28,270 nucleotides of DNA from a virus: positions 1 through 28,270 of IMG/VR virus record IMGVR_UViG_3300046455_000467; one strand, 5' to 3'. This document shows, piece after piece, positions 8,755-27,871 of the stretch. The notes beneath the pieces are model-generated. The model did no database searches and was not told the DNA's origin. It worked only from the letters and a program-made list of their open reading frames with translations. Positions within the stretch are counted from its first letter, which is position 1, and each line of letters starts with the position of its first letter. A program made the position numbers and the translations under genes.

Positions 8755-8795
8755 TTGACGGATCGAATTGTGAGCGCGTACAATTCGATCCGTCA
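8755..8795 (+). promoter_or_regulatory. Palindromic lac-operator-like promoter, copy A
   Basis: TTGACG (8755-8760), 18-bp spacer and TACAAT (8779-8784) form a sigma70-type promoter. The whole element is a perfect inverted repeat: TGACGGATCGAATTGT (8756-8771) and its complement (8780-8795) around an 8-base centre. The core AATTGTGAGCGCGTACAATT matches the symmetric lac operator at 18 of 20 positions. An operator spanning the spacer and -10 would block RNA polymerase when bound. It precedes the cassette 8833-11830. Confidence 0.88.
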
Positions 8796-8832
8796 GCAGC
8801 GCATAGGGCGCGGCGGCCACAAGGAGAATGTG

Positions 8833-9000
8833 ATGCAAGAAATGATTATCAAGCCCGAGGGCTCCACGCCCGTTGCCGTGTACTACCGCATCGTGCGCAA
8901 GGATGAAATCGGCGAATACGTCCTCCTGAATGGCCGCCGCGCCTACATCGTCCGCAAGGACGGCCGCGCCTACGTCGATTACTACATGGACAAGAAATAA
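8833..9000 (+). CDS. Hypothetical protein, first gene after promoter A (55 aa)
   Basis: The ATG at 8833 has AAGGAG 6 bases upstream; the longer frame that starts inside the promoter is discarded. The product is small and beta-rich with alternating charged and aromatic residues (VAVYYRIVRKDEIGEYV, then RAYIVRKDGRAYVDYYM). It contains two similar units, YRIVRKDE and YIVRKDGR, which suggest an internal duplication or a small beta barrel. No family is recognised. As the first gene after a strong promoter it should be highly expressed once the operator is free. Confidence 0.7.
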   Translation: MQEMIIKPEGSTPVAVYYRIVRKDEIGEYVLLNGRRAYIVRKDGRAYVDYYMDKK

Positions 9001-9002
9001 AC

Positions 9003-9341
9003 ATGGCAACCCACAAAATCACAAGCGAAATCGAAATCAAGCCCGGCCAATGGGTTTGCAGACTCCCGTTCTCCATGTTCTCCAGCCATCTGTGCGATCG
9101 ACCGCAACTGGTCATGGGAGCATCCGGGCAGCGTATCTATCTGGCCGAGACTAGCGGTGCGAACCAGGGCAACTACATTTCGCGCAGCACCGCCGCATAC
9201 CTGTGCGACACCGAAGCGGAAGCGCTCGCCGTGTACGCGGTCAGCGAATCGCAGGCGCGCGCGCTCCAAGCGAGCCGGGATGCGATCAAGGCTGAACACG
9301 AGGCCAAGATCGCTGCCCTGATCGCCGGGAGCGCAGCATGA
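9003..9341 (+). CDS. Hypothetical protein (112 aa)
   Basis: Begins 2 bases after the preceding stop. The N-terminal two thirds look beta-rich (THKITSEIEIKPGQWVC, then QRIYLAETSGANQGNYI). The C-terminal third is a long Ala-rich helix (EAEALAVYAVSESQARALQA). Not recognised. Its last codons overlap the next gene (ATGA), so it is part of the promoter A polycistron. Confidence 0.6.
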   Translation: MATHKITSEIEIKPGQWVCRLPFSMFSSHLCDRPQLVMGASGQRIYLAETSGANQGNYISRSTAAYLCDTEAEALAVYAVSESQARALQASRDAIKAEHEAKIAALIAGSAA

Positions 9342-9898
9342 GCCAGCGCCCATTCGAGGTAGCGGCCCACAAGGCACCATCCCGCGAAGCGCTGCAAGCC
9401 CAGTGCGACGCCTTCAATTTCGAGTGCGCCGTCGGCGGCCCGGTCGCGGTTAAGCTCGACGGCCGCGACAAGCCCCTCATCACCACCACGCGCAGCGAGG
9501 CGCAAGTCCTGTCCGGGCACTCGGCCGTCGTGTGGCTGGACGGCGTGAGCGGGTGCTACCTGCTGGAGCGTGTCGCGCCGATCCCGCGCCCCGCGCCGCA
9601 GCATCTTGCCCCGGTTATCACTGAGGCCGGTGCCCGGATGCTTCGCCAGCACCTCGAAAGTGCCCTTGCGAACTCCCCCGGCTACCACATGGCACTGGTT
9701 CCGGGCGACGATGTACTTGCGCTGCTGGACAACATGCGCGCCGTGCCCCGCCTGCCCACGCCGAAGCAGCTCCGCGCAGCACTGCGCCACACCAGCGATG
9801 CCGAGCTGGCGAAGTCGATCTATCTGGCGATGACCAGCGCCGAGGCGATCACACCCGAGGGACCGACCACCCGCATCCAGAAAGGACCGGCCCAATGA
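9338..9898 (+). CDS. Hypothetical protein (186 aa)
   Basis: Start in an ATGA overlap. Residues about 1-75 have a mixed fold (QAQCDAFNFECAVGGPVAV). The middle repeats short helical units, and residues about 100-170 resemble a helical domain with TPKQLRAALRHTSDAELA. No catalytic motif, Cys cluster or membrane segment is evident. Coupled at both ends to neighbouring accessory genes. Function unknown. Confidence 0.6.
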   Translation: MSQRPFEVAAHKAPSREALQAQCDAFNFECAVGGPVAVKLDGRDKPLITTTRSEAQVLSGHSAVVWLDGVSGCYLLERVAPIPRPAPQHLAPVITEAGARMLRQHLESALANSPGYHMALVPGDDVLALLDNMRAVPRLPTPKQLRAALRHTSDAELAKSIYLAMTSAEAITPEGPTTRIQKGPAQ

Positions 9899-10158
9899 GC
9901 ATCCACACCGCCACGCGCCCGGTGCGCGTCTACCACCGCCCGTCGCGCCCGAAAGAGGGCGGCGGCATCCATTACCCGCTCGAAGTGCAGCACGCGCGCG
10001 GCCTGTTCCACCAGTTCAGCATCCAGAGCGAGGAACTGGACACTGGCGCGGCGCATTGCCCCGTCGCCGTGGTCGAGCTGGCCGACGGCTCTGTTATCAC
10101 CCCGGCCGCGCACATGATCCAGTTCCTCGACATCGCGCAGGAGCCTAGCCATGCGTAA
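9895..10158 (+). CDS. Hypothetical protein (87 aa)
   Basis: Start in an ATGA overlap with the preceding gene. The sequence is beta-rich: VRVYHRPSRPKEGGGIHYPL, then a segment with SEELDTGAAHCPVAVVE and DGSVITPAAHMIQFLD. The strand-turn-strand end 'VVELADGSVITPAAHMIQF' type is common in small phage accessory proteins, but I know no function for it. It overlaps the DUF6283 gene by 8 bases. Confidence 0.6.
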   Translation: MSIHTATRPVRVYHRPSRPKEGGGIHYPLEVQHARGLFHQFSIQSEELDTGAAHCPVAVVELADGSVITPAAHMIQFLDIAQEPSHA

Positions 10159-10570
10159 GCCGACCACCATCACCGCCGTGCGCCCGGTGGACGAGGATCA
10201 CCAAGTCGTCACCGTCGAAGGCGGGGGAGGGCAGTACCGCCGCGAGCCGTGCGGCGGCTGTCCGTGGCGCGTAGACCAGACCGGCCAGTTTCCGGCCGGG
10301 GCGTTCCTTGTGTCGGCGAGCACGGCCTACGACATGGCGCGGAACAAATTTTCATGCCACGAATCGGGCTCGAAGAAACCCGCGACGTGCGCCGGGTTCC
10401 TGATGCGCGGCGCGGATCATAACCTTGCCGTGCGCCGCGCCTACAGCAGCGGCATGTACGATTTCAACGCGATCAGCGACGGCGGCCACGAGCTGCACGC
10501 CAGCTACCGCGCGATGGCCGAGGCGAACGGCTGCGACCCGGACGCCCCTGAACTCGCCCCATGCCGATAA
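10151..10570 (+). CDS. DUF6283 family protein (139 aa)
   Basis: The family pattern is clear: EPCGGCPWRVD (Cys34, Cys37), GQFPAGAF, SASTAYDMA, then KFSCHESG (Cys69-His70), KPATCAGF (Cys80) and ADHNLAVR. The end has HASYRAMAEANGCDPDAPEL, also typical. Four conserved Cys plus His suggest a bound metal ion or iron-sulfur cluster. The family is common in phages and actinobacteria; its biochemical role is not known to me. Full length for the family, translationally linked to neighbours on both sides. Confidence 0.85.
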   Translation: MRKPTTITAVRPVDEDHQVVTVEGGGGQYRREPCGGCPWRVDQTGQFPAGAFLVSASTAYDMARNKFSCHESGSKKPATCAGFLMRGADHNLAVRRAYSSGMYDFNAISDGGHELHASYRAMAEANGCDPDAPELAPCR

Positions 10571-10578
10571 GGACCACC

Positions 10579-10776
10579 ATGACCACACTCTACGCGATAC
10601 GCAGCGCCCTGCCGCGCCGCCTGTGCGACGCTGCGAGCCCGATGCCGATGGCCGACAAGGACCGCTTTCAATGGAGCCACCCGGACGCAGAATTCATCGA
10701 GCCGTTCTTCAACCTCGGCCTGTACAAGTGCCCGCACTGCAAGCTGACCTTTCACGCACCGAGGCGGACGCAATGA
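10579..10776 (+). CDS. Small CPHC-motif protein (65 aa)
   Basis: The ATG at 10579 has AAGGA upstream and is preferred to an in-frame ATG at 10561 that overlaps the previous gene. The last third contains FFNLGLYKCPHCKLTFHAP, a half zinc-ribbon knuckle that could form a metal site with His residues or by dimerisation. The stop overlaps the next start (ATGA). Not assigned to a family. Confidence 0.6.
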   Translation: MTTLYAIRSALPRRLCDAASPMPMADKDRFQWSHPDAEFIEPFFNLGLYKCPHCKLTFHAPRRTQ

Positions 10777-11210
10777 AGCTGCTGCTGATCGCCTGTTCCG
10801 AGCGCAAGCTGGGCGGCACGCACCGCGCGCTGGACCTGTACCGAGGAACCATGTACAACGTGCTGCGCAAATGGATGCCAGCAGCACCGCCCGACATTTG
10901 CATCCTGTCGGCGAAGCATGGCCTGCTGCACGCGGACACCATGACCGAGAACTACGAACAGCCGATGACGCCCGCGCGCTCGCGCGAGCTGCTGGCGCAA
11001 CCGCTGGCGCTGGCCGGGTTCGAGGGCAAGCGCTACAGCGCGGTATTCATCGCCGCGCCGTCCGCCTATCGCGAGCTGGGCCGCGCCTACGTTGACCAGC
11101 TCCGCGCGACCGGGATCATCGCCCAGGACGCGCCGGTAAGCGGGACCGAGGGAGGTATCGGCACGCAGCGCGGCCAGCTCGGCGCATACCTGCGGGGACT
11201 CGGCCAATGA
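10773..11210 (+). CDS. DUF6884 / YaaA-like protein (145 aa)
   Basis: The start at 10773 overlaps the previous stop. Motifs of the DUF6884 group are visible: LLIACSERK (Cys8, Ser9, Lys12), ALDLYRGTMY (19-28), CILSAKHGLL (43-52) and ENYEQPM (59-65). This group is related to the YaaA/DpdA-type folds that act on nucleic acid or nucleotides; the precise activity here is unknown. It is followed immediately by a ligase-domain-Ia protein, so the two may act in one nucleotide-related step, which is inference. Confidence 0.8.
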   Translation: MKLLLIACSERKLGGTHRALDLYRGTMYNVLRKWMPAAPPDICILSAKHGLLHADTMTENYEQPMTPARSRELLAQPLALAGFEGKRYSAVFIAAPSAYRELGRAYVDQLRATGIIAQDAPVSGTEGGIGTQRGQLGAYLRGLGQ

Positions 11211-11587
11211 TGCCAAGCTTCACCCCGGCCGAAATCATCCGGCAGCGCCGCCAGCAAATGCTGATCCACTCGCACCTGTACTACCGCATGGACGCGCCGA
11301 TCATCAGCGACGACCAGTGGCAGCGCTGGGCCGACGAGCTGGCGCAGCTCCAGCGCCAGCACCCTGAGCCGATCAATTTCTACGACCGCGAATTCGCAGA
11401 CTGGGACGGCTCGACCGGCATGCACTTGCCGAATGATGGCTGGGTCATCGAGAAGGCCGATCTGGTGCGCCGCCTGCACGCGGGCGACCACCAGCGCCCG
11501 GATGCCGAGAAAACGCCGCCAGCGCCCGCTATGCAAGCGCCAGCAACGCCGCCGCCCATGCCGCCCGCGCAGTTCTCGCTGCTCTAG
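11207..11587 (+). CDS. DNA ligase LigA-related protein (domain Ia only, 126 aa)
   Basis: Residues about 8-60 match the N-terminal domain Ia of NAD+-dependent DNA ligases: a helical start (EIIRQRRQQMLIHSHLYY), with Tyr25/Tyr26 and Asp35 in the PIISDDQWQRWADEL segment, then LQRQHPEP. In LigA this domain binds the NMN half of NAD+. The nucleotidyltransferase, OB, zinc-finger, HhH and BRCT parts are absent, so it cannot be a ligase. The end is a Pro/Ala-rich tail finishing in QFSLL, which resembles a sliding-clamp-binding peptide; that is only a suggestion. Stand-alone members are known in phages. Confidence 0.78.
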   Translation: MMPSFTPAEIIRQRRQQMLIHSHLYYRMDAPIISDDQWQRWADELAQLQRQHPEPINFYDREFADWDGSTGMHLPNDGWVIEKADLVRRLHAGDHQRPDAEKTPPAPAMQAPATPPPMPPAQFSLL

Positions 11588-11612
11588 CGCAATGAGCGCG
11601 CATACATTGCGC
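11587..11612. repeat. 8-bp stem hairpin downstream of the LigA-like gene
   Basis: GCGCAATG (11587-11594) and CATTGCGC (11605-11612) pair around a 10-base loop containing AGCGCG. No T-run follows, so it is not a terminator by itself. The core TGAGCGCG followed by TACA two bases later recalls the centre of the palindromic promoters, perhaps a degenerate relative; no -35 is present. Confidence 0.4.
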
Positions 11613-11677
11613 GCCTGCATAGCGGGCTCGGCCGTGGAGGGCACACTGTAGGAACCGCCACCACCGGAGAGCCGCCG

Positions 11678-11830
11678 ATGTACCTCGACCTTCAGCGCCC
11701 ACCGGGCCAGCCGTGCCCGGCCTGCTACGTCCCGCGCAACAAGCCCTGCAAGCCCAATTGCTCAAGCATCTACCGACCGCCGCGCATCAGCTTCCTTGAT
11801 CGCCTGCTGTCCCGCCTGCCGATCCCGTAA
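11678..11830 (+). CDS. Cys/Pro-rich mini-protein (50 aa)
   Basis: An ATG at 11678 with GGAGA 7 bases upstream opens a 50-residue frame ending just before a strong terminator. It contains four Cys in CPACYVPRNKPCKPNC, a plausible zinc-binding or disulfide knot, then an Arg/Pro/Leu-rich end (DRLLSRLPIP). It is the last gene of the promoter A cassette. There is no homology I can name; the ribosome binding site and exact fit before the terminator support it. Confidence 0.5.
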   Translation: MYLDLQRPPGQPCPACYVPRNKPCKPNCSSIYRPPRISFLDRLLSRLPIP

Positions 11831-11833
11831 CGA

Positions 11834-11867
11834 AAAAGCCCCGGACGTGTGCCGGGGCTTTTCTTTT
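11834..11867. terminator. Strong bidirectional intrinsic terminator
   Basis: AAAAGCCCCGG (11834-11844) and CCGGGGCTTTT (11852-11862) form an 11-bp stem with a 7-base loop, flanked by T-runs on both strands. It ends the rightward promoter A cassette and also serves the convergent minus-strand gene ending at 11901. Confidence 0.9.
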
Positions 11868-11900
11868 GGCGAGCACCGCAGTGCCCAGGCCGGGAAGGGA

Positions 11901-12332
11901 TCAGGCGCGCAGCAGCACGGCGCTATGGCCCTCGGCCTCCTGTTCCGCATGGGTGCCGATCAGGGAATGGGTCGAGGTCTTGGCGGTGCTGATGGGCGAG
12001 CAACACAATCGCTCATGCGCGCTGGCGCTGGGCGTGTGCAGCGCCGCCACCACGGCCACGCCTGCCGATACCGCGAGCGGCCCCACCAGCGCCATTTCCA
12101 GGCCGGGGCGATCTTGCGCGCGGGCGTCCAGGCTGGCCGGGCTCGCGACGAGCTGGGCGCGCTCGACGGCGACAGCCGGGGCGGCGATGGCGACGACATC
12201 CTTGGTGGCGCGGGTTTGCTCGACGCGCTGCACGCCGGGGTCCGGCTGATGCGGCATGGCCTGCGCACTCACGCTGAAGGCCAGCGCGCACACCGCCATC
12301 ATCGCAAGGGTTCGCATTCGGGATTTGGACAT
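11901..12332 (-). CDS. Exported protein with signal peptide (143 aa)
   Basis: The ATG at 12332 is preceded by AAGGAG at good spacing. The start is a clear Sec signal peptide: basic N-region (SKSRMR), hydrophobic core (TLAMMAVCALAFSVS) and a likely cleavage site after AQA (residue 25). A second hydrophobic stretch lies at about 80-96 (MALVGPLAVSAGVAVVAAL). The remainder is Ala/Val-rich without a known motif. It is one of only two minus-strand genes inside a 16-kb rightward region and ends at a bidirectional terminator, which suggests a separately acquired cargo gene (moron). Function unknown. Confidence 0.6.
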   Translation of the reverse strand: MSKSRMRTLAMMAVCALAFSVSAQAMPHQPDPGVQRVEQTRATKDVVAIAAPAVAVERAQLVASPASLDARAQDRPGLEMALVGPLAVSAGVAVVAALHTPSASAHERLCCSPISTAKTSTHSLIGTHAEQEAEGHSAVLLRA

Positions 12333-12390
12333 AAAGCTCCTTCTATGGTTGAGGTTGAACTACGGGGAAATGCTTATTCTTCGCGGCCAG

Positions 12391-12540
12391 TCACGGCCAC
12401 AGCAGGCAGGCGCAGATCACCCGCGCCAGCTCGGCGGCACATGCCCCGAGCGCCATGAACGCCACCGCGAAGCAACACGCGCCGAGCGGGCTTACGTCCG
12501 GTTCTCCCTGGCGGTGAATCCTTTTCTTTGCGGCTGGCAT
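12391..12540 (-). CDS. 49-aa possible membrane mini-protein
   Basis: An ATG at 12540 opens a 49-codon frame. It has a basic start (PAAKKRIHRQG) followed by a Cys/Ala-rich hydrophobic region with two short segments (CCFAVAFMALGACAAEL and VICACLLW). It sits upstream of the signal-peptide gene on the same strand, 58 bases away, with an AT-rich promoter-like stretch above it (TAAAAT at about 12563-12568 on the minus strand). The ribosome binding site is weak. It could be a small membrane partner of the exported protein or a chance frame. Confidence 0.35.
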   Translation of the reverse strand: MPAAKKRIHRQGEPDVSPLGACCFAVAFMALGACAAELARVICACLLWP

Positions 12541-12841
12541 GACTGTTAAATCCCGATGATTACGATTTTACATAATGCTAATTATGCGCGGTAAGCCTTT
12601 GATTATTAAGGCTTTTTACTCGGCATTACTTATTCTATTGTCGAGTTCGGTTGTAGCGCGAATCCGGCCCGGAAACGTCCCGACAAACGGCCCCGGCGTA
12701 CCGGGCGATGAGCTGCCCGGCTTCGCGCCCGGTGGCAACGGAGTACCGCCCCCGTTGAGGACCAATGTACGGCGCGGCCGGTGGCGGCCTGGGCGTAGTT
12801 TTCCTAACCGTGCGAAATGTATGCTTACGAACACATTTCCT
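12541..12841. other. AT-rich 300-bp gap with hairpins, no confident gene
   Basis: This stretch starts with an AT-rich part (12541-12660) unlike the surrounding DNA and then becomes GC-rich. It holds CATAAT/ATTATG (12571-12576 and 12581-12586), a terminator-like hairpin at 12593-12617, and GAAATGT/ACATTTC (12814-12820 and 12833-12839) just upstream of promoter B. A plus-strand frame from 12575 begins like a signal peptide (IIKAFYSALLILLSSSVVA), but it lacks a ribosome binding site and runs through promoter B out of frame with the next gene. It may be a decayed exported-protein gene. Confidence 0.5.
12593..12617 (+). terminator. Terminator-like hairpin AAGCCTT/AAGGCTT
   Basis: AAGCCTT (12593-12599) and AAGGCTT (12608-12614) form a 7-bp stem with an 8-base loop followed by T's on the plus strand. 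It is of moderate strength because the stem is short and A+T-rich. It would stop rightward read-through before promoter B. Confidence 0.5.
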
Positions 12842-12842
12842 A

Positions 12843-12875
12843 TTGACGCATCGAATTGTGAGCGCGTACAATTCG
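12843..12875 (+). promoter_or_regulatory. Palindromic lac-operator-like promoter, copy B
   Basis: TTGACG (12843-12848), 18-bp spacer, TACAAT (12867-12872). The inner palindrome CGAATTGT (12852-12859) / ACAATTCG (12868-12875) is intact around the GAGCGCGT centre, while the outer arms differ from copy A. It drives the cassette 12906-15038. The stem-loop GAAATGT/ACATTTC lies directly upstream. Confidence 0.85.
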
Positions 12876-12905
12876 TTTCATCGACAACGAACCGAGTACC
12901 CCGCC

Positions 12906-13715
12906 ATGAACAAAGCCGCCTGCATCGCCTACGCTTCCCGCTGCCGCCTCGCTTTCGCCGAGTCCAGCGAGCGCGCCGCAAAGTACGCCGTCGCATTCGG
13001 CTCCGAGTCCGACGCATTCATCGCCGAGACACGCGAAATGGCGCGCGCCAACGACGCCGCCCAAGAGTGGGACAAGCTGGCCGCCATGCACCCGCAGACC
13101 CGCTCCAAGCTGTTCCGTGACCAGTCGCTGCCGTCGGAAATCTTCGGCTTCGGCGCGGCACCAGTCGCCAAGGAGCAGGAGCTGGCCGCCGCCACGAGCG
13201 CAGCCTGGGCCGCCGAGGCGAAGGCGCAACGTGCGTTCGAGCGCGCCGACAACACCTACGCGGTGGACGATCCCCGCCTTGCCAAAGCCCGCGCGAAGCT
13301 GGACGCCGCACGCGCCGCTTCGCGCGCAGCAATCAAGGCCGAGTCCGACCATCTGCGCCAGCGCGAGGCGCGCGCCATCCTGGCCGACGAAGGCCCGCGA
13401 CTGGTTTCGCGCCTGATGGAATGCCTGATGGGCGAGGACGCCCCGGCCGAGGGCACCGACATTTACGCCGACGACTTCCCGCTCGAAACGAATGACCCCT
13501 GGCTGCTGCGCGCCATCGCGATCCTCAAGAGCAAAGTCCCGCTTGACCCGGCCGAGGTGCCGAAGCTGTGCGAATTCCTGATCGGCATGTGCAACGGCGC
13601 GACGCCCGAGCCGCGCGACGCCGACATTTACGCCCGGACCACGCTCGACGGCGACGCCTACGTGCTGCGCGCCGCCCAGGTGCTCACCGAGGCCGCCGCC
13701 GCCCTGACCAAATGA
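12906..13715 (+). CDS. Ala-rich helical protein of unknown function (269 aa)
   Basis: The ATG at 12906 is the first after promoter B; longer frames would begin upstream of the promoter. The product is almost entirely helical. Residues about 95-165 are Ala/Lys/Glu/Arg-rich and coiled-coil-like (AAWAAEAKAQRAFERAD, KARAKLDAARAASRAAIKAE). The last 100 residues look globular, with two similar segments, TDIYADDFPLETNDPWLLRA and ADIYARTTLDGDAYVLRA, which suggest an internal repeat. No family is recognised. The ribosome binding site is poor (GAG 9 bases upstream). Confidence 0.65.
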   Translation: MNKAACIAYASRCRLAFAESSERAAKYAVAFGSESDAFIAETREMARANDAAQEWDKLAAMHPQTRSKLFRDQSLPSEIFGFGAAPVAKEQELAAATSAAWAAEAKAQRAFERADNTYAVDDPRLAKARAKLDAARAASRAAIKAESDHLRQREARAILADEGPRLVSRLMECLMGEDAPAEGTDIYADDFPLETNDPWLLRAIAILKSKVPLDPAEVPKLCEFLIGMCNGATPEPRDADIYARTTLDGDAYVLRAAQVLTEAAAALTK

Positions 13716-13763
13716 CCACCCACCCGGTACGCCGGGCACCATTGGAGAATCACCCCATGAGCA
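13711..13763 (+). repeat. Intergenic unit repeat 1 (hairpin + ribosome binding site)
   Basis: This stretch and 14084-14138 are near copies: both carry a stop codon in AATGAC, a CCCGG-NNNN-CCGGG hairpin (here 13723-13736), TTGGAGAA and a CCCATGAGCA start. The copies differ at scattered positions and by a 2-base indel. They place equal translation signals before two unrelated small genes. Confidence 0.75.
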
Positions 13764-13894
13764 TGACCGCCCTGATCCTGTCCCTGAGCATGGAGCGCCA
13801 CACTGAGCTGACGGCCAAGTACGGCCGCCGCGCCGCCGACCGCGCCCTGTTCGCCACCGCCGCTCGCCTGATCGCGGGCGAGTACCGGAACTGA
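13757..13894 (+). CDS. Small hypothetical protein (45 aa)
   Basis: The ATG at 13757 lies 9 bases after GGAG in the repeated intergenic unit; a longer in-frame start at 13568 would lie inside the previous gene. The product is helical: MTALILSLSMERHTELTAKY, then GRRAADRALFATAARLIAGEY. It is not membrane-like despite the hydrophobic start. No family is recognised; the good translation signal supports it. Confidence 0.55.
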   Translation: MSMTALILSLSMERHTELTAKYGRRAADRALFATAARLIAGEYRN

Positions 13895-13899
13895 TCCCA

Positions 13900-14088
13900 A
13901 TGCCGGGAGCAGAACTGAACGGCACCGAGGCCGCAAACCGAGCCGTTATCGAGTCGAACGCGAAGGGCGCAGGCATCATCTTCCTGACCCGGAGCGAGTA
14001 TCAGGACTTGTGCTACCGCGCAAACCTGTCCTAGCTGTCCCGCTACAAGGGCAAGACCATCTTCATCGTAAGCGACCCTATCGAATGA
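13900..14088 (+). pseudogene. Small gene interrupted by an in-frame amber codon
   Basis: An ATG at 13900 opens a frame of 44 codons (with GAGIIFLTRSEYQDLCYRAN) that meets TAG at 14032-14034. The same frame then continues for 17 more codons of normal-looking sequence (LSRYKGKTIFIVSDPIE) to TGA at 14086-14088. That TGA lies exactly at the start of the repeated intergenic unit, where the stop of an intact gene would be expected. So a 62-aa protein appears to be broken by a single amber codon. Possible causes are a recent mutation, suppression by the host, or a sequencing error. Either the truncated 44-aa protein or nothing functional is made. Confidence 0.6.
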
Positions 14089-14138
14089 CAACCCGCCCGG
14101 TGCGCCGGGCATCAACTTGGAGAACTGTCCCATGAGCA
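14084..14138 (+). repeat. Intergenic unit repeat 2 (hairpin + ribosome binding site)
   Basis: Second copy of the unit at 13711-13763. Here the hairpin is GCCCGG (14095-14100) and CCGGGC (14105-14110) with a TGCG loop. TTGGAGAA and CCCATGAGCA follow as in the first copy. The duplication probably arose with insertion or exchange of small gene cassettes. Confidence 0.75.
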
Positions 14139-14446
14139 CCACCATCACCCTGAAGATCAGCAAGAAAATGGCCGCGCTGCTGACCGGCATCATCCCCGAG
14201 GGCGGCACTGTCGCCGCAATCGCCGCCGAGGTCGCAGCCGGGCGCGTTGCCGCCGACGGGTCCGTGACGGTCGAAACCGAGCGCGAGAACGGCATGGCGC
14301 TACTCGGCATCGCCAAGGGCCGCATGAGCATGCTGGACGCGGCGCTGCTGTCGGCCGAAGGCCCGGACAAGCACAAGCTGCTGGGCGAGCACAGCGCATG
14401 GCGCGCGCTGGCCAAGCAGCTCCCCGAGTTCACGCCTGCCGCGTAA
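14132..14446 (+). CDS. Hypothetical protein (104 aa)
   Basis: The ATG at 14132 follows GGAG 9 bases upstream, within the second repeated intergenic unit. The sequence has a short beta start (TTITLKISKKMAALL), a central Ala/Val-rich part with VAADGSVTVETEREN, and a helical end (AWRALAKQLPEF). It is not recognised; nothing indicates membrane location or an enzyme site. The next gene starts after a single base. Confidence 0.6.
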   Translation: MSTTITLKISKKMAALLTGIIPEGGTVAAIAAEVAAGRVAADGSVTVETERENGMALLGIAKGRMSMLDAALLSAEGPDKHKLLGEHSAWRALAKQLPEFTPAA

Positions 14447-14447
14447 C

Positions 14448-14636
14448 ATGGCCGCCACCAGCTCCCCGCCCCGCCCCGACATCCACCCGTACAAGGTCGA
14501 GCAGCAGCCGGGCGGGCAATGGGCGGTCGTCAGCCCGAACCTCGGCCCGCTCCCCGAATACACCCGCGCGACCGAGGGCGAGGCCATCACCGCAGCGCTG
14601 TACTGCCGCCGCGTAGACAACCACGAAATCGACTAG
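14448..14636 (+). CDS. Small hypothetical protein (62 aa)
   Basis: Begins one base after the preceding TAA. It has the form of a small beta-beta-alpha unit: YKVEQQPGGQWAVVSPNLGP, then PEYTRATEGEAITAALYC. This resembles the short single-domain proteins frequent in phage accessory regions that resemble HicB-like or DUF-type folds, but no assignment is justified. It is probably translated by coupling, as no separate strong ribosome binding site is visible. Confidence 0.55.
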   Translation: MAATSSPPRPDIHPYKVEQQPGGQWAVVSPNLGPLPEYTRATEGEAITAALYCRRVDNHEID

Positions 14637-14666
14637 CCTGCATCCGGCCAACACGAGGAACCACCC

Positions 14667-15038
14667 ATGAACAAACCCGACGACTTCATGACCCGCCTGA
14701 CCGAATGGATGGGCCGCGATCTGACCGAGGCCGAACAGCAGCGCGCGCAGGCTATGCGCGACGACGGGCGGCCGCTCACCATCATCGGCCGCGCGCTGAA
14801 GGCCGCCGCTGTCGCTGCCGCTGCGATCACCACGCCCGAGCACATCATGCGCAAGCTGCGCCAGCGTCACGAGCTGGACGCGGACGACACCTCGCGCGAC
14901 GCCGAGCTGAACGCCCTTCTGCCGCTGCAAAAGCTGCGCCACATCGCCGCCTGGGAGATTGGCAGCCCGGACTGGGCCGACCACTTCATAACCTGGGCGA
15001 AGCAATGCGGCATCACCATCGTGGACCCGCGCGACTGA
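14667..15038 (+). CDS. Helical hypothetical protein (123 aa)
   Basis: ATG at 14667 with GAGGAA 6-7 bases upstream. It is entirely helical: an acidic/basic N-terminal part (LTEWMGRDLTEAEQQRAQAM), a short hydrophobic helix (LKAAAVAAAAIT) and a C-terminal part ending AKQCGITIVDPRD. Not recognised. It is the last gene of the promoter B cassette, 22 bases before a strong terminator. Confidence 0.6.
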   Translation: MNKPDDFMTRLTEWMGRDLTEAEQQRAQAMRDDGRPLTIIGRALKAAAVAAAAITTPEHIMRKLRQRHELDADDTSRDAELNALLPLQKLRHIAAWEIGSPDWADHFITWAKQCGITIVDPRD

Positions 15039-15060
15039 CCCGCACCACCCCAGCCACAAG

Positions 15061-15085
15061 GCCCGCCGCGAGCGGGCTTTTTTTT
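15061..15085 (+). terminator. Intrinsic terminator ending the promoter B cassette
   Basis: GCCCGC (15061-15066), 5-base loop, GCGGGC (15072-15077), then eight T's. Promoter C begins 5 bases downstream, so the cassettes are insulated back to back. Confidence 0.92.
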
Positions 15086-15089
15086 CCTC

Positions 15090-15130
15090 TTGACGAATCA
15101 AATTGTGAGCGCGTACAATCCGATTCATCA
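15090..15130 (+). promoter_or_regulatory. Palindromic lac-operator-like promoter, copy C
   Basis: TTGACG (15090-15095), 18-bp spacer, TACAAT (15114-15119). The arms TGACGAATCAAATTGT (15091-15106) and its partner (15115-15130) match at 13 of 16 positions around the same GAGCGCGT centre. The leader that follows contains GCGGCGCAC, as in copy D. It drives the cassette 15170-18462. Confidence 0.88.
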
Positions 15131-15169
15131 GCGGCGCACGGTGCGCAGCGCATAACCCGGAGAATGACT

Positions 15170-15445
15170 ATGAAGCTCGAAACCTACCTCGCCAAACAGG
15201 GCTACATCACCTACGTCAGCGAAGGCGACGACGTGTTCGAGGGCGAGGACGGCCAGCGCAACATCGAAATCTACGAGAGCCGCGATGACATCGAGCCTAT
15301 CGGCTGGTTCGTGTCGCTGCCGGGGCGCGCTGAGCTGGAGTGGCGCAACATTTTCGGCAAGGTCACCACCGGCACCATGTTCACCGAGGCCGAGGCCAAA
15401 GCCGCCGCCAAGGCCCACAAGTTCTACCCGATCACCTCGAAGTAA
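15170..15445 (+). CDS. Hypothetical protein, first gene after promoter C (91 aa)
   Basis: The second of two close ATGs (15170) is chosen because GGAG ends 7 bases upstream; the ATG at 15164 would be too close. The product is small and soluble with an acidic middle (YVSEGDDVFEGEDGQRNIEI), a beta segment around GWFVSLPG, and a helical end (TEAEAKAAAKAHKF). Not recognised. Its place right behind a strong controlled promoter predicts high early expression. Confidence 0.65.
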   Translation: MKLETYLAKQGYITYVSEGDDVFEGEDGQRNIEIYESRDDIEPIGWFVSLPGRAELEWRNIFGKVTTGTMFTEAEAKAAAKAHKFYPITSK

Positions 15446-15447
15446 CC

Positions 15448-15660
15448 ATGCGCGCCACTCCGCACCGCTTCACGCCTGGGGCGTACAGCGCCACCGACCC
15501 GGCGAACGGCCGCATGTACACCGTACAGGGCGACAGGATTGAGCGGCACCACTACCGGCACGGCCGCGTCACGCTGGTGCTGGTTGACCCGGCCGCAAGC
15601 CCGGAGCTGGCCGCCCGTATCATGGCGGCCATCGAAACCACCACCACGAAAGAAGCATGA
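15448..15660 (+). CDS. Hypothetical protein (70 aa)
   Basis: The ATG at 15448 is 2 bases after the previous stop. Basic and beta-rich: FTPGAYSATDPANGRMYTV, then RIERHHYRHGRVTLVLVD, with a helical end (ELAARIMAAIETT). No family is recognised. The stop overlaps the next ATG, so translation is coupled on that side. Confidence 0.6.
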   Translation: MRATPHRFTPGAYSATDPANGRMYTVQGDRIERHHYRHGRVTLVLVDPAASPELAARIMAAIETTTTKEA

Positions 15661-15857
15661 TCATGAGCAGAGGCATCAATCGCAAGTATTCCGCAGGCGT
15701 GAAATGCAACGCTTCGGGCTCTGACTTCTATAGCTACGCAGCGGGCTCGCCTGATGCCGACGGCCGAGCGGCCTGCCCGATGTGCGGCAAGCGCGTGAAG
15801 CTGCGCGAGGTGCGGACATACATCAAGAGCTGGCTCATACCGGCGCATAACACCTAA
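15657..15857 (+). CDS. Small basic protein with CPMC zinc-type motif (66 aa)
   Basis: Starts in an ATGA overlap (a second ATG lies at 15663). The pattern GINRKYSAGVKCNASGSDFY, then AACPMCGKRVKLREV and IPAHNT, is one I recognise as recurring in small phage proteins, though without an assigned function. Cys16-type and CPMC cysteines may form a zinc site; the basic charge suggests nucleic-acid or host-protein binding. A 104-bp gap with a possible promoter follows. Confidence 0.65.
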   Translation: MIMSRGINRKYSAGVKCNASGSDFYSYAAGSPDADGRAACPMCGKRVKLREVRTYIKSWLIPAHNT

Positions 15858-15908
15858 AACGACCGCTTTTGTACACGGCTTGCAACACCGAACAGAACCT
15901 AGCCTATT

Positions 15909-15931
15909 TCTTTCTGGACACCCGCTATAAT
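15909..15931 (+). promoter_or_regulatory. Possible secondary promoter (consensus -10, weak -35)
   Basis: The 104-bp gap 15858-15961 contains a perfect TATAAT (15926-15931), but no hexamer like TTGACA stands 16-18 bases upstream. It could be a promoter dependent on an activator, allowing separate control of the gene set 15962-18462. Confidence 0.4.
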
Positions 15932-15961
15932 TCGCACACCCATTTAGGACACAAGGACCAA

Positions 15962-16354
15962 ATGAACACCGCCACCCACCAACAAGAGGCCACCGAAACG
16001 CGCCTCGACAATGCCCTCTGGCTGCTGATGCAGTTCCCAATCCATCGCTACCTGATGAGCTGCGCGCACGGCCGCTGGGATGGCGCGGAAAAGGCTACCC
16101 GCCACATCGAGCTGTGCAGCATCGTGGTAGCGGTCGAGCACGGCTGCATCAACCTTGACGAAGCCCGCCTCGAACACTTGGACGACTACCGCGCCGTGCA
16201 TGAGAGCACCCAAAGGCTGACCGACAACATGGACGAGGTAATCGGGTTCCCGCTCGAATCGGACCCGGATTACGACGTGCTCGCCCCGATGTTCTTCGAC
16301 TGGTTCATGCGCTATGCGCGCGAGGCCATCGCCGCTACTGGGAGCGCAGCATGA
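15962..16354 (+). CDS. Hypothetical helical protein (130 aa)
   Basis: The ATG at 15962 is preceded by AAGGA. The protein is helical with aromatic and acidic patches: DNALWLLMQFPIHRYLMS, then HIELCSIVVAVEHGC, and an acidic end (DPDYDVLAPMFFDWFMRYA). It does not look transmembrane. No family is recognised. Its stop overlaps the DUF2786 gene (ATGA), so they are translated together. Confidence 0.6.
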   Translation: MNTATHQQEATETRLDNALWLLMQFPIHRYLMSCAHGRWDGAEKATRHIELCSIVVAVEHGCINLDEARLEHLDDYRAVHESTQRLTDNMDEVIGFPLESDPDYDVLAPMFFDWFMRYAREAIAATGSAA

Positions 16355-16899
16355 GCGCCGTCAGCGAAGCGCTGATGCGCCGCATTGGCAAGATCAAGGA
16401 GCTGGCCGAGCGCGGCGTCGATGGCGAGAAGGCCGCCGCCCAGTCGATGCTGGAAAAAATTCTGGTGAAGCACGGCCTGACGCTGGCCGATATTGAGGGC
16501 AAGCCCAAGCGCGAGTGGGTCGAGCTGACATTCTCTGGCGAGTATGAAAAGCTGCTGCTGACCCAAATTGTCCGCAAGGCGGCAGGGGTGAGCGGCGATC
16601 TGGTGTACCGCTGGAAGAAGGGCACCCGGACGCGCATCAAGTTCGAGCTGTCCCCGGTCGAGCACGTCGAGGTCGAATTTATGTTCGAGCTGATGAAAAA
16701 GGCGCTGGCCGATGAATTCAGCAAGGTGCTGTCCGCCTTCATCCACACGAATAGGCTGTTTGGCCCGAGCGTCGAGGATGACGAGGACGACAAGGACGAG
16801 CCCGAGAAAACCCCTGAGGAGCGCGCCCGCCTGCGCCAGATTGCGGCGATGATGAGCGTGATGAGCCCGGTCAAGGTGCATAAGGCCATCGAGCAATGA
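16351..16899 (+). CDS. DUF2786 domain protein (182 aa)
   Basis: Residues about 7-48 match the DUF2786 pattern: LMRRIGKIKELAERG, then EKAAAQSMLEKILVKHGL and LADIE. DUF2786 is a short helical domain found at the start of phage, plasmid and bacterial proteins of unknown role. The rest has a mixed fold with KLLLTQIVRKAAGVSGD and a beta part (RIKFELSPVEHVEVEFMFEL), then an acidic, probably flexible stretch (VEDDEDDKDEPEK) and a helical end. Possible binding to nucleic acid or DNA-associated proteins is inference. Coupled to both neighbours by ATGA overlaps. Confidence 0.75.
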   Translation: MSAVSEALMRRIGKIKELAERGVDGEKAAAQSMLEKILVKHGLTLADIEGKPKREWVELTFSGEYEKLLLTQIVRKAAGVSGDLVYRWKKGTRTRIKFELSPVEHVEVEFMFELMKKALADEFSKVLSAFIHTNRLFGPSVEDDEDDKDEPEKTPEERARLRQIAAMMSVMSPVKVHKAIEQ

Positions 16900-17111
16900 G
16901 ACTTTGCGCGATCCTGCACGGCGAAGGCATGGGCAGCCCGCCTGACGAAAACGGCTGCCATCTGCCAGCCAACCACGGCGGCCAGCCGCATGAGTACGTC
17001 GCCACCGATGGCCGCACCTATCAATGGGAAACCGACCTCGCCTGCGACTGCGACCACTGTATGCGTTGCGAGGGCGACTACTGCACTACCTACTGGGAAA
17101 AGGAACTATGA
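16896..17111 (+). CDS. Cys-rich small protein (71 aa)
   Basis: Start in an ATGA overlap. The C-terminal third contains a dense Cys cluster, CDCDHCMRC, followed by another Cys near YC; with His residues in the N-terminal part (HLPANHGGQPHEY) this suggests a metal-binding mini-protein. It is acidic overall, so direct DNA binding is less likely than for the basic zinc-ribbon genes nearby. No family assigned. Confidence 0.6.
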   Translation: MRLCAILHGEGMGSPPDENGCHLPANHGGQPHEYVATDGRTYQWETDLACDCDHCMRCEGDYCTTYWEKEL

Positions 17112-17851
17112 GCGACAACACAAATTGCAAGGGCGCTTTCCGCGCATTCTATGATGGCGAAATCGAAATCCCTACGCGCCCCGCCCGCGTATGCGTCAGC
17201 CCCTTGGCTACCCGCCCGGTCCTGTACACGGACACCGTGGGCGGCGTGCAAACCTGCCGCGATGACCTGTGGGCCATCACCACCGACGAGCTGAACGCGC
17301 TGGCCGCCCCGGACGCGCTGGCCGCCGTCGAGCACCACACCTACGGCAGCATCGCCGAGCGCATGACTGGCAAGCACCGCGATGACAGCGGCACCGTGTA
17401 CGTCACCCTGGCCGATGCCGAGGCGGCCGTGCGCGCCGTGGCGAGCACCAGCACGGCATGGCGGCAGACCGCCGAAACCAAGGACCGGCAGGCCGCCGAG
17501 GTGCGCGCGCACCTCCAGCAGACCCGCATGGCGCTGCGCTGGGCGCTGGAATGGATTGACGCCGTGCCGGGCGATACCCCGCTGCCGACCATGCCCGGCT
17601 TCGACCGCGACTACGTGAACGTCCTGCTTGATACCCCGACCACCTCCGCACGCCCGGCCATCGGCACCGAAGAACAGGCCGATGCAATGCTGGCGGACCT
17701 GACCCGCGAGTACCACCAGCGCGCTGCCCCGATCCTCAAGATTCTGACGACCTTTGCAGCGTTGCGTCCGCCCCCACCCATGCTCATATCGCGCGAGCAT
17801 GCCGAGCGCTTGGGCTTCACGCCGTCCAACCTGCCGGGAGAGCCAGAGTGA
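17108..17851 (+). CDS. Hypothetical protein with central coiled-coil-like helix (247 aa)
   Basis: The ATG at 17108 overlaps the previous stop; the longer upstream frame is discarded. The N-terminal part is mixed alpha/beta, followed by Ala/Arg/Glu-rich helices ([13 protein letters not shown], then [20 protein letters not shown]). The end has a helical segment and a Pro-rich tail ([10 protein letters not shown]). No known motif. It directly precedes and overlaps the serine recombinase gene, so it may be an accessory factor for it, but this is context only. Confidence 0.6.
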
Positions 17852-18462
17852 GCCGCGTATTCGCCTACTGCCGGGTATCGACCGGCGACCAGACCACCGA
17901 GAACCAGATTGCCGAGATTGCGGGGGCAGGGTTCGCCATCGACGCCAAGCGCGCCATTGCCGAGACTATCAGCGGCTCCGTGGCCGCGACCGAGCGCCCC
18001 GGCTTCACGAAACTGCTGGACCGCCTGGAGCCCGGCGACGTGCTCGTGGTAACGAAGCTGGACCGCCTGGGCCGCAACGCGATGGACTTGCGCGCCACCG
18101 TGTCCAACCTTGAGCGCGCGGGAATTCGCGTGCATTGCCTCGCGCTGGGCGGCATGGACCTCACCAGCCCGGCCGGGAAGATGACGATGGGCGTTATCGC
18201 GGCCGTTGCCGAGTTCGAGCGGGACTTGCTCATCGAGCGCACGAACGCGGGCCTTGCGCGGGCCAAGAAAGACGGCAAGCGCTTCGGCCGCCCGCCTGCA
18301 CTGGACGAGGATGCACGCGGCATGGCGCGGGCTATGCTGGCCGCTGGCGTGCCTGTCTCCGAAGTCGCCCGCGACCTGAACACCTCCCGCGCCACCATCA
18401 TCCGGGCGCGCGATTCCGTACCGCTGCCGCCCGCTCCCGAGCCCGGCCAGCTCGCCGCCTGA
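17848..18462 (+). CDS. Small serine recombinase (resolvase/invertase family, 204 aa)
   Basis: Family signature at the N-terminus: [10 protein letters not shown] with the catalytic Ser11, then KLDRLGRN (70-77) with the conserved Arg73 and Arg76. A long helix around [11 protein letters not shown] is the dimer/E-helix region, followed by [10 protein letters not shown] and a C-terminal helix-turn-helix ([19 protein letters not shown] with SRATIIRAR). The size is that of Tn3-type resolvases and Hin/Gin-type invertases, not of large serine integrases. It cuts DNA at paired sites through a 5'-phosphoserine link. Its sites were not identified. It ends the promoter C cassette; the start overlaps the previous stop. 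Confidence 0.93.
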
Positions 18463-18467
18463 CCACC

Positions 18468-18491
18468 GCCCGGCACGTCCGGGCTTTTTTT
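18468..18491 (+). terminator. Intrinsic terminator after the serine recombinase
   Basis: GCCCGG (18468-18473), CACGT loop, CCGGGC (18479-18484), seven T's. Promoter D begins 27 bases downstream, repeating the terminator-promoter boundary seen at 15061-15130. Confidence 0.9.
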
Positions 18492-18517
18492 CGTGTCGCG
18501 TCACGATTAAATCACGC

Positions 18518-18558
18518 TTGACGAATCGAATTGTGAGCGCGTACACTGCGAAGCATCA
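18518..18558 (+). promoter_or_regulatory. Lac-operator-like promoter, copy D (right arm degenerate)
   Basis: TTGACG (18518-18523), 18-bp spacer, TACACT (18542-18547). The left half matches copies A-C exactly over AATTGTGAGCGCGTACA, but the right arm pairs at only 11 of 16 positions and the -10 deviates from TACAAT. It may be weaker or less tightly controlled. It drives the cassette 18596-20009. Confidence 0.82.
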
Positions 18559-18595
18559 GCGGCGCACTGGGCGCGGCGACACCGGACGAAAGATC

Positions 18596-18736
18596 ATGAG
18601 CGCATCGAGCATCAAGGAAATGATGGACAACTGGGCCAAGACCGAGGCGGACGCCCGCGCTGCCAACCCTGACGCCAGCGACGAACAGATTTACCAGATG
18701 ACCGCCGACGCGATGAGCAAATCGCTGGGCCTGTAA
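18596..18736 (+). CDS. Small acidic hypothetical protein (46 aa)
   Basis: The ATG at 18596 follows promoter D and a GGAC/GAAAG region; the frame extending into the promoter is discarded. It is helical: SSIKEMMDNWAKTEADARAA, then DASDEQIYQMTADAMSKSLG. First gene of the promoter D cassette. No family is recognised. Confidence 0.6.
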   Translation: MSASSIKEMMDNWAKTEADARAANPDASDEQIYQMTADAMSKSLGL

Positions 18737-24109: not shown

Positions 24110-24495
24110 GCGGCCTCCAGCGGTAGCGGGAGCTGGTCGCCGGGCTGCTGCCGGGCTTCGATGGCCGCCAGGAAGTGCGCGGAGTCGGCCCGCCTGTATT
24201 CCCACAAGCGCGCGTGCTGCGGGTAGCGCACGGCGAACGCGCGCGCCAGATCGGGAGCCATGTGGTCATTGATCTTGAAGCTGCACGCCCCGGCCTCGCG
24301 CAACCGGGTGTAGTGCCTGATTTCCTCCACGATGGTGCGGGCTGAGAAATGCGTCCACCCGGCCGCGATGAGGTCGAGCGTTTGGCGCTCGAACTGCTGC
24401 CAGATCGGGTCATTGATGCCCAGCCAGTCCAGAAATTCGGGACGGAAGTAGGCCGCGAACGGCAGCAGATCATCATTGCGGTTCGGGTCCGTCAT
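24106..24495 (-). CDS. Conserved phage protein downstream of terminase (129 aa)
   Basis: The ATG at 24495 overlaps the terminase stop and has GGAGG upstream; the longer frame is discarded. The pattern FAAYFRPEFLDWLGIND, then IWQQFERQTLDLIAAGWTHF and SARTIVEEIRHYTRL, KINDHMAPDLARAFA, belongs to a widespread group of phage proteins of unknown function. It ends in a small Leu/Pro-rich tail. Position in the packaging operon hints at a DNA-related role but does not prove it. Confidence 0.75.
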   Translation of the reverse strand: MTDPNRNDDLLPFAAYFRPEFLDWLGINDPIWQQFERQTLDLIAAGWTHFSARTIVEEIRHYTRLREAGACSFKINDHMAPDLARAFAVRYPQHARLWEYRRADSAHFLAAIEARQQPGDQLPLPLEAA

Positions 24496-26051
24496 GCGGC
24501 CTCCTGATCGAGCGGGGTGCCGTCCGGCTTCATCCCCATAGATGCCATGAGCTTTGCGCGGGCCTCGTCCTTGGCGCTGCCGTCGTTGGCCGCTTCCTCG
24601 CCCGCGAGGTTGTAGTAGGCGTCCTCCAGATAGGCGAACGACAGCGAATCCCATATGTCCGGCGACGGGATGCCCTCTTTGCGCATATCCTCTTTCTTGG
24701 CGATGTAGCGGCGGGCCTTCTCGTCGTAGTGGTACGGGATGCGCGAGCCTTCGCGCACGATCTGCTTGACGATGGCCGGGTCAATCCCCTCATCAATGCC
24801 GAATCGGCCCTCCTGCACGGCGCGGGACAGGCCGCAGATCGCTTGCGCGCGCTGGTTCGCATAGCGGTCCTTGTATTCCTTCTTGAAGTTCGGGATGCCC
24901 CAGTTCACTTTCTTGAAGTTGTGGAAGTCGGCCTTTTCGAGCTGCTTGCAAACGCCCAGGCCGATACCGCCCGCGTCCACCAGCGCCATGCTGTTGTTGA
25001 GCTGGCCCGCCTCGGTGATGATCCGGCCTGGGAGGTCGGACACATCCTGATCGTTCGAGCACACCGGCACCTTGACGAGCTGGACGCGGCGCGCGTTGTC
25101 GCCATACTCGCCGTCACCCGTCACCTTCAGCGCCAGCACCACGCTCTTGTCGCGGTAGCCGCCACCGCCCACGTCCACCGGCAGCAGCCACCCGAACGGC
25201 TCATCCGGGCGCACGGCGATGAGGCCGACGCATGCCTGAATGGCCTTTGGACCCAGCAGGTACTTGCTCGACTGCTCACTGAAGCGGCCCAGCACCTTGA
25301 TGTCGAATTCCTCGGGGGTGTACTGCTTCTTTTTCTCGGCAACAAATTCCTCGGACACGATAGGCGAGTCCGCCGAGCTGAATACCAGGGAGTTCCACGA
25401 TCCGCCCTCGGCCTTCGACAGCGTATGGTGCGTGTCGTAGAAGAACCCGGACGAGCGGGTAGGCTGCGACGCGATACACATGCGGTTGCGCTTGTCCGTC
25501 AACGCCCCGGTGATAACCCCGAAATTGGCGTCAGGCACGCCCGAGGCTTCGTCAACGAGGAACAGCAGCCAGTCGCGGTGAGCGCCCGCAAGGTTCTCAG
25601 GCGAGCCGCGCGGCGCGGTCTTGGCGACGATCCACCATGACAGCTTGAAGCCCTTCACGAATACGCGCTCGGCCTGCACCTCGAAATACTCGGCAATCCA
25701 TGCGTGCGGGCCGCTCTTGATCTTGCCCATCAGGTCGGCGAACTCTTTCCATACGCCGTCAGAAACAGTCGTCAGCTTCGGGGCGGATAGGATCGTGTTG
25801 CTGTTGTGATAGCAAAGCAGGTGCCACAGGCCGATGATGCCGTAGCCTGCGGTCTTGCCGGTGCCGTGGCCGGACGAAATCGAGGTGCGGGAACCCGGCT
25901 CCTGCACGCTCTCGAACATTTCCCATTGCTGATGGGTCGGGATGGTGCGGCACACCTCAATGGCGAACCTGGGGAGGTCGTAGGCGTAGCGCTTGGCGAA
26001 TTCCGTGTAGCGCGGGTCTTGCAGCAGAGTGAGCTTCGATGTTGCGGCCAC
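24492..26051 (-). CDS. terL: Terminase large subunit (519 aa)
   Basis: Start taken at GTG 26051 with GAGG upstream. The ATPase domain has Walker A SGHGTGKT (60-67) and Walker B LLFLVDEAS (162-170, Asp167/Glu168), then SQPTRSSG near 195-202. The C-terminal RNase H-like nuclease has its acidic residues in PVDVGGGGYRDKS (Asp293), MALVDAGGIGLG (Asp359) and SPDIWDSLSFAY (Asp465/Asp468). Complete for the family. It cuts and translocates phage DNA into proheads. It follows the small subunit after 4 bases and overlaps the next gene. Confidence 0.95.
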   Translation of the reverse strand: MAATSKLTLLQDPRYTEFAKRYAYDLPRFAIEVCRTIPTHQQWEMFESVQEPGSRTSISSGHGTGKTAGYGIIGLWHLLCYHNSNTILSAPKLTTVSDGVWKEFADLMGKIKSGPHAWIAEYFEVQAERVFVKGFKLSWWIVAKTAPRGSPENLAGAHRDWLLFLVDEASGVPDANFGVITGALTDKRNRMCIASQPTRSSGFFYDTHHTLSKAEGGSWNSLVFSSADSPIVSEEFVAEKKKQYTPEEFDIKVLGRFSEQSSKYLLGPKAIQACVGLIAVRPDEPFGWLLPVDVGGGGYRDKSVVLALKVTGDGEYGDNARRVQLVKVPVCSNDQDVSDLPGRIITEAGQLNNSMALVDAGGIGLGVCKQLEKADFHNFKKVNWGIPNFKKEYKDRYANQRAQAICGLSRAVQEGRFGIDEGIDPAIVKQIVREGSRIPYHYDEKARRYIAKKEDMRKEGIPSPDIWDSLSFAYLEDAYYNLAGEEAANDGSAKDEARAKLMASMGMKPDGTPLDQEAA

Positions 26052-26969: not shown

Positions 26970-27173
26970 TCATGATGCCGGGCACAGCGAGACAGCAGAG
27001 GCCGAGTTTTCCCGCGTGCCTTCATCGGCCATGTGCGTTGCGACCATCAGGACCAGGATCAGGACAGCGGCACGGATCATGCGCTTGGTCGGGCGACCCG
27101 GCTCAACCATGTGCAGCAGCCCATAGGCAGCGAGCCACGAGAGGATTTTTCCGACAATGAACAGCGCGCCCAT
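26970..27173 (-). CDS. Small two-helix membrane protein (67 aa)
   Basis: The start at 27173 overlaps the last base of the XRE stop (TGATG). Two hydrophobic helices: ALFIVGKILSWLAAYGLLHM (about 3-22) and IRAAVLILVLMVATHMA (about 33-49), joined by a basic loop (EPGRPTKRM). Holin-like in size and topology, but located between a regulator and terminase, so a lysis role is only possible. The polar tail ends SLCPAS. Confidence 0.65.
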   Translation of the reverse strand: MGALFIVGKILSWLAAYGLLHMVEPGRPTKRMIRAAVLILVLMVATHMADEGTRENSASAVSLCPAS

Positions 27174-27871
27174 CAGAACAGGTCCAGTTGCGGGATGAAC
27201 GAGGCGAGCGGGCCTTCCTTCCCCTTGGCGATGGCAAGGCAGTGTTCCTCGATCAGCGCGCGGCGGTTGCTTGACTCCTTCAGCGGGATCATGGCCGCCT
27301 CCAGGCGCTCCACGGCGGCGGTCAGCTTGGTCCCGGCGCGCAGCTCTTCCCAGGCGGCCGGATTCAGCTCTTGCACGCGGCCCAGCGCATCGTTCACGGC
27401 CTCGGCAGCGACGGTGACGGCCTGAAGGTCCACGCGGGCGACGGCGCGTTCGCTCCCGTAGCGGACAAACGCCTCGGTCATCGCCGTAACCTGCGACTGG
27501 ACGAGCTGCTCGAAGCCCCGGAACATGGCGAAACTTTCGGCCGCGACCGGATCGCGCTCCGGGTGCGGGGAAATACCCATCAGGTAGTCCACCGACACGG
27601 AGTACGCCTTGCTCATGTTCAGCAGGAACTTCCAGTCATCGGGCACCTTGCGCTCGCCGCTCTCGATCTGGCTGAGCTGGGTCGAGTTCTTGTAGCCGAG
27701 GCGCTGGGCCGCCTCTACAGCGGTCAGGCCATTCATCACGCGCGCCGAAACCATCCGTTCGCGCATCAGCTCCCTCTCGCGCGGCACGTCCTTGTTGCGC
27801 ACGAAGCGCTTGGACGGGGCGCTTGGCACGCCTTCCAGCGCAATGGTGACGACTTCCTCGGTGTTGCTCAT
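27173..27871 (-). CDS. XRE-family (Cro/CI-type HTH) regulator (232 aa)
   Basis: The ATG at 27871 overlaps the DUF1367 stop (ATGA). A Cro/CI helix-turn-helix domain spans about residues 36-100: RERMVSARVMNGLTAVEAA, QRLGYKNSTQLSQIESGERK and SKAYSVSVDYLMGI. The rest is a long alpha-helical region with coiled-coil tendency, no LexA/CI-type Ala-Gly cleavage site or Ser-Lys dyad visible, so it is not a classical self-cleaving repressor. It lies in the packaging operon rather than next to the divergent control region. Targets unknown; the palindromic promoters and CGAAACTTTCG sites are candidates. Confidence 0.85.
   Translation of the reverse strand: MSNTEEVVTIALEGVPSAPSKRFVRNKDVPRERELMRERMVSARVMNGLTAVEAAQRLGYKNSTQLSQIESGERKVPDDWKFLLNMSKAYSVSVDYLMGISPHPERDPVAAESFAMFRGFEQLVQSQVTAMTEAFVRYGSERAVARVDLQAVTVAAEAVNDALGRVQELNPAAWEELRAGTKLTAAVERLEAAMIPLKESSNRRALIEEHCLAIAKGKEGPLASFIPQLDLF

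Follow-up and report, generated by a model that had tools for sequence, protein, structure and literature searches.

Four near-identical promoters are dispersed over the 28,270-nt stretch of viral DNA analysed here (hereafter, the window), and a lac-operator-like palindrome had been described as their common feature. This raises the question of which protein, if any, reads the shared element, and whether one regulator might act on all copies. Our leading, still tentative answer, which we rate just short of evenly balanced, is that a small, phage-encoded ribbon-helix-helix (RHH)-like factor reads the core of a dispersed sigma-70-type promoter family, probably as a repressor.

Promoter copies in the window

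The preliminary description placed promoters of the form TTGACG-N18-TACAAT at 8755, 12843, 15090 and 18518, and these are borne out. Exact copies of the 17-mer AATTGTGAGCGCGTACA are found at 8766, 12854, 15101 and 18529, each time on the + strand, and a scan of the window with up to three mismatches returned the same four matches only (0.03 expected; no shuffle reached four). The hexamers are as described at 8755, 12843 and 15090, with the TACACT version at 18518, and all four copies match the sigma-70 consensus at 9 or 10 of 12 positions. Copy A is indeed a perfect inverted repeat, with 16 of 16 arm positions pairing around an 8-base centre, and copies B–D are imperfect palindromes (Table 1).

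Table 1. Features of the window, in window coordinates unless stated otherwise.
Feature	Position	Strand	Details
Promoter A	8755..8796	+	TTGACG 8755-8760; core TGAGCGCG 8771-8778; TACAAT 8779-8784; perfect 16-bp dyad arms
Leader hairpin of A	8795..8815	+	AGCAGCGC-atagg-GCGCGGCG
First gene behind promoter A	8833..9000 (85-kb record 69016-69183)	+	55 aa, no assigned function
Promoter B	12843..12884	+	core at 12859; next gene 12906-13715; lacks a leader hairpin
Intrinsic-terminator-like site	15058..15080	+	immediately 5' of promoter C
Promoter C	15090..15131	+	core at 15106; next gene 15170-15445
Leader hairpin of C	15130..15150	+	AGCGGCGC-acggt-GCGCAGCG
Intrinsic-terminator-like site	18468..18484	+	5' of promoter D
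Promoter D	18518..18559	+	TACACT -10; core at 18534; next gene 18596-18736
Leader hairpin of D	18558..18578	+	AGCGGCGC-actgg-GCGCGGCG
PacB-like large terminase	24492..26051	-	puts the phage among P1-like phages
XRE-family protein	27173..27871	-	considered as a rival regulator; found in core-bearing and coreless P1-like relatives

Among the neighbouring genes, a serine recombinase of the DNA-invertase family (17848-18462) ends the promoter C operon and precedes the terminator-like site and promoter D, and a membrane-like protein (phrog_37671; 8160-8747) shares about 55% identity with proteins of BcepSauron and BcepSaruman, two large Burkholderia phages.

A promoter family in a P1-like phage lineage

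The window matches a section of an 85,481-bp IMG/VR contig almost perfectly (99.99–100% over L006 and L008), and coordinate matching places its positions 1-25298 at 60184-85481 of this 85-kb record, the start of which recurs from window position 25172, so that the genome looks circular. The large terminase is 33% identical to that of P1, 41% to that of Xanthomonas phage Rb1, 66% to that of the Burkholderia vietnamiensis plasmid pBVIE05 and 65% to that of a 93-kb contig of Paraburkholderia sp. C35; PacB of P1, P7, D6 and RCS47 was matched at 33–34%, and related contigs measure 85–93 kb. Because the terminase is PacB-like, we regard the window phage as a P1-like temperate phage and, with less certainty, as a probable phage-plasmid of Burkholderiales. 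Several PacB-like terminase genes contain inserted sequence (L061, L052 and L054; NZ_CP070504 and NZ_CP016898), annotated in two plasmid records as a Hint-domain homing endonuclease, and these inserts are possible inteins.

The count of four holds for the window and not for the phage, as the 85-kb record carries at least seven copies. Three further cores lie outside the window at 35892 (-), 51335 (+) and 52355 (+); the outer arms are broken in copy F (51335), and the inner arm as well in copy G (52355). Exact TGAGCGC(A/G)TACANT cores number seven in this record versus none in 100 third-order Markov genomes. We compared seven relatives of 87–95 kb (G003, G004, G005, G006, G008, G009 and G332), the partial records G007 (25 kb) and G018, and pBVIE05 (CP000621); together with the window phage, these 11 related phages and phage-plasmids hold 62 such promoters. 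In the nine genomes with gene calls, made with a purpose-written simple caller, all 53 sites are intergenic and 5' of a gene on the same strand, and the core starts 39–66 nt before the called start codon at 45 of them, the other eight lying further off. Nearly all sites have TTGAC or TTGC as the -35 element, the spacer is 17–18 nt, and TCA often occurs 7–9 nt past the -10, where transcription would be expected to start. At the sequence level, the sites have what is expected of sigma-70 promoters: a TTGACA-like -35, a TATAAT-like -10, a spacer within 16–18 nt and a nearby gene start. The pattern was absent from 300 Burkholderiaceae genomes, searched as potential hosts, and the literature searched contained neither an earlier description of this promoter family nor a published one of pBVIE05. 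IMG/VR pattern matches outside the phage family (L193; L189/L195/L196/L200/L207) were set aside as probably due to chance, and exact 17-mer matches in L005 and L009–L011 were rejected as instances of this promoter, since they have no TTGAC upstream and resemble coding sequence.

What the relatives keep is the -35, the asymmetric core TGAGCGC(A/G)TACANT and the position of the promoter; the outer arms are mostly not kept. The conserved unit consists of TTGAC/TTGC and an 8-bp core in the spacer, TGAGCGC(A/G), that runs straight into the -10. At 51 sites in genomes of the TGAGCGC type, mean conservation over the eight bases preceding the -10 is 1.81 bits per base versus 1.50 for the hexamer, and at the 11 sites with the alternative core TGACAACA, the values are 1.80 and 1.40 bits, respectively. 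Sigma-70 by itself does not need a conserved spacer core, which makes it likely that an additional factor reads this element. In the window phage, 67% of long-arm positions pair, versus only 25–50% elsewhere on the same axis. Within-site dyad pairing modestly exceeded that of cross-site shuffles across all genomes (p = 0.004, arms 8–20) and did not reach significance in the window phage alone; some of the dyad symmetry may be functional.

These comparisons bear directly on the proposal that a host protein of the LacI/GalR family binds the palindrome. The 20-bp core of copy A has two differences from the symmetric lac operator, a match at 18 of 20 positions that includes the left half TTGTGAGCG, and the central CpG is retained in TGAGCGC genomes. 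However, the CpG is missing in G008 and G009, and the arms and the right half-site are not conserved. Of the pair AATTGTGAGC / GCTCACAATT, the left half is present in the window phage and the right half occurs at no site, all TGAGCGC sites having a GC(A/G)TACANT-like sequence instead. No LacI-type HTH (PF00356) was found in the eight phages searched, the genes and their setting differ from those of the Escherichia coli system, and the promoter pattern is missing from the 300 Burkholderiaceae genomes. We consider binding by a host LacI/GalR protein extremely unlikely. The resemblance to lac is particular to the window phage, where the palindrome would be a local elaboration of the site. Loss of the arms with retention of the hexamers, named beforehand as the outcome that would count against the proposal, is largely what is seen for the palindrome and not for the common core element. 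What stands of the earlier reading is a shared sigma-70-type family with an extra common element over the spacer and the -10 that one regulator could use; a lac palindrome read by a LacI/GalR protein as its defining feature is not supported.

Concerted core change and candidate regulators

Every core in two near-complete relatives, G008 (five sites) and G009 (six sites), is TGACAACA and none is TGAGCGC; the change includes the promoters upstream of an orthologous DUF6011 gene, and G331, a third contig of this branch, has two TGACAACA cores. The other genomes have TGAGCGC, except for TGATCGC at four sites (G006 and G007) and TACGCGC at one (G006). Because the core has changed at orthologous positions, the pattern argues for, and points to, a trans-acting factor, with gene conversion as a possible source of the concerted change.

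An alternative is a cassette without a dedicated regulator, in which strong promoters for host RNA polymerase have spread by duplication and gene conversion, homogenising the core within each genome. The near-consensus -35 and -10, the 17–18 nt spacer and the frequent TCA at the expected start are consistent with this, promoter and leader hairpin often move together, and duplication would give within-genome similarity. Yet conservation of the spacer core exceeds that of the -10, although the flanks vary freely between sites, the core change reaches promoters at orthologous positions, and the combination is missing from the 300 Burkholderiaceae genomes; we therefore hold a regulator-free cassette to be somewhat unlikely.

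The data instead suggest that one virus-made DNA-binding protein, rather than a lac repressor of the E. coli type, controls all copies. The four copies are members of a genome-wide sigma-70-type family in a Burkholderiales-associated P1-like temperate phage-plasmid lineage, and each promoter would start a separate short operon, the genes of which are small and for the most part uncharacterised. The sites, where they lie, how they are conserved and the concerted core change are observed, whereas promoter activity, binder and direction of regulation are predictions from sequence: the TGAGCGC(A/G) core (TGACAACA in one sub-lineage), lying in the spacer next to the -10, most likely serves as the binding site of a single phage-encoded trans-acting factor, and this factor would probably act as a repressor by blocking RNA polymerase.

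The best candidate for such a factor is the small RHH-like protein whose gene lies beyond the window, at 54961-55479 of the 85-kb record. Proteins of core-bearing genomes share a strand-helix-helix-like pattern, RGE-x-R-[ILV]-[STN]-x-W-[LI], and the gene lies a few genes 3' of the core promoter that fronts the DUF6011 gene in every genome where both were seen; none was found in G007, a 25-kb record only. As the gene is in an operon that starts with a core promoter, its product would be autoregulated. Further conserved genes without an assigned function share this operon. Eight of 60 DUF6011 loci in IMG/VR have an RHH-like protein (L226–L233), and seven of these eight have a core of the exact pattern, L227 having a TAAAAT variant of the -10. 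The gene is missing from seven of eight coreless P1-like relatives, a set in which the Ideonella plasmid was scanned for the core over 41 kb only; the coreless phage Rb1 gave a weak RHH-like match (E = 5e-5). At the position that aligns with CopG Arg4, putatively the first of the strand to contact DNA, nine of nine TGAGCGC genomes have Arg, and G008, G009 and G331 have Leu, His and Leu, respectively. This covariation probably reflects a single evolutionary event, and because the genomes are related, we regard the tracking of core type by the strand residue as suggestive and not as proof.

Assignment to the RHH fold is provisional: it draws on the sequence pattern and the predicted order of elements. 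By-eye alignment puts the sequence in register with CopG and NikR, and low-confidence models show two helices at moderate confidence and no strand in the monomer. The protein has no Pfam or NCBIfam RHH match and no PDB match; Foldseek with the model returned nothing in PDB and nothing meaningful in BFVD, and profile comparison with known RHH proteins stayed at the level of shuffled controls. Like RHH autorepressors of the CopG, NikR and ParD type, the candidate is small and encoded in an operon behind its presumed site, and it shows the strand-helix-helix-like pattern with an Arg that aligns with CopG Arg4; unlike them, it lacks a significant family or structure match, and its binding is only predicted. 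A dimeric regulator would normally favour a clean palindrome, and we count it against a dimeric RHH-like reader that the core is not one.

The XRE-family protein of the window, or a small HTH protein beside CI, could be the regulator instead. The former has a DNA-binding domain and is conserved across the eight core-bearing genomes of the initial comparison as well as pBVIE05 and G332. It is, however, also present in eight of eight coreless P1-like relatives, and in the window phage it has its own operon, without a core. A covariation of its recognition helix with the core failed once pBVIE05 was added, as this TGAGCGC plasmid has the same Leu as G008 and G009. Control by either protein appears improbable.

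Probable CI operators and a possible second network

A CI-type repressor (XRE plus S24-like) is encoded in each near-complete genome examined, with a fragment in G018. That it binds the core sites has a precedent in P1, in which C1 binds 22 dispersed, 17-bp asymmetric operators with the consensus ATTGCTCTAATAAATTT (PMC8546580). But the cI region has a dispersed palindrome of its own and no TGAGCGC core: ATAGACATGTCTAT recurs there in G008, G009 and pBVIE05, with more copies elsewhere in these genomes, and the window group has a ATAGGCATGCCTAT-like palindrome in this region, a related one, ATTAGCATACCTAT, lying at 5120-5133 of the window. From its position, the ATAGACATGTCTAT-type palindrome is probably the CI operator. 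G008 and G009 each have just a single core promoter whose -35 is overlapped by such a site, suggesting that these two promoters would be silenced by CI in the prophage. As the reader of the core sites in general, CI is very improbable.

The core sites resemble the P1 C1 operators in belonging to a P1-like phage, in being scattered over the genome at promoters of separate operons, and in their asymmetric consensus (PMC8546580). They differ in core sequence and in abutting the -10 within the spacer, the likely binder is not C1/CI, and a dispersed operator of the CI type seems to exist separately in these phages. Mycobacteriophage stoperators are likewise numerous asymmetric sites across a genome for one regulator (PMC9283540), as we infer here; unlike these, the core sites all come with a -35 and -10 before genes, and none lies within a called gene.

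The arrangement is ordinary in kind, namely the dispersed regulated promoters of a P1-like phage, with signs of a second control layer that has a lineage-specific core. A more specific reading, which we consider possible though doubtful, has two dispersed operator networks. In one, CI would act on ATAGACATGTCTAT-type palindromes; in the other, an RHH-like autorepressor would act on the core abutting the -10 at several promoters in each genome (seven in the window phage), and this second network would have switched genome-wide from TGAGCGCA to TGACAACA along with one strand residue of the autorepressor. If true, this would be a natural record of a repressor and all its sites changing together. 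Besides correcting the lac-operator reading, the analysis indicates that the lineage appears to carry a dispersed operator network beside the CI operators, the core of which differs at every site in one branch. Repressor-operator co-evolution could be tested in this lineage, which also provides a candidate family of phage regulators and a set of compact promoters for Burkholderiales.

A GC-rich leader hairpin (GC.GCGC-loop-GCGC.GC) follows soon after the expected start in 21 of the 38 core promoters that G001 and G003–G007 carry, with little covariation because its arms are nearly invariant. At G008:22618 and G009:53538, a hairpin lies directly after the core promoter, within about 30 nt and with a T-run in G008, as might be the case for an attenuator or a short RNA.
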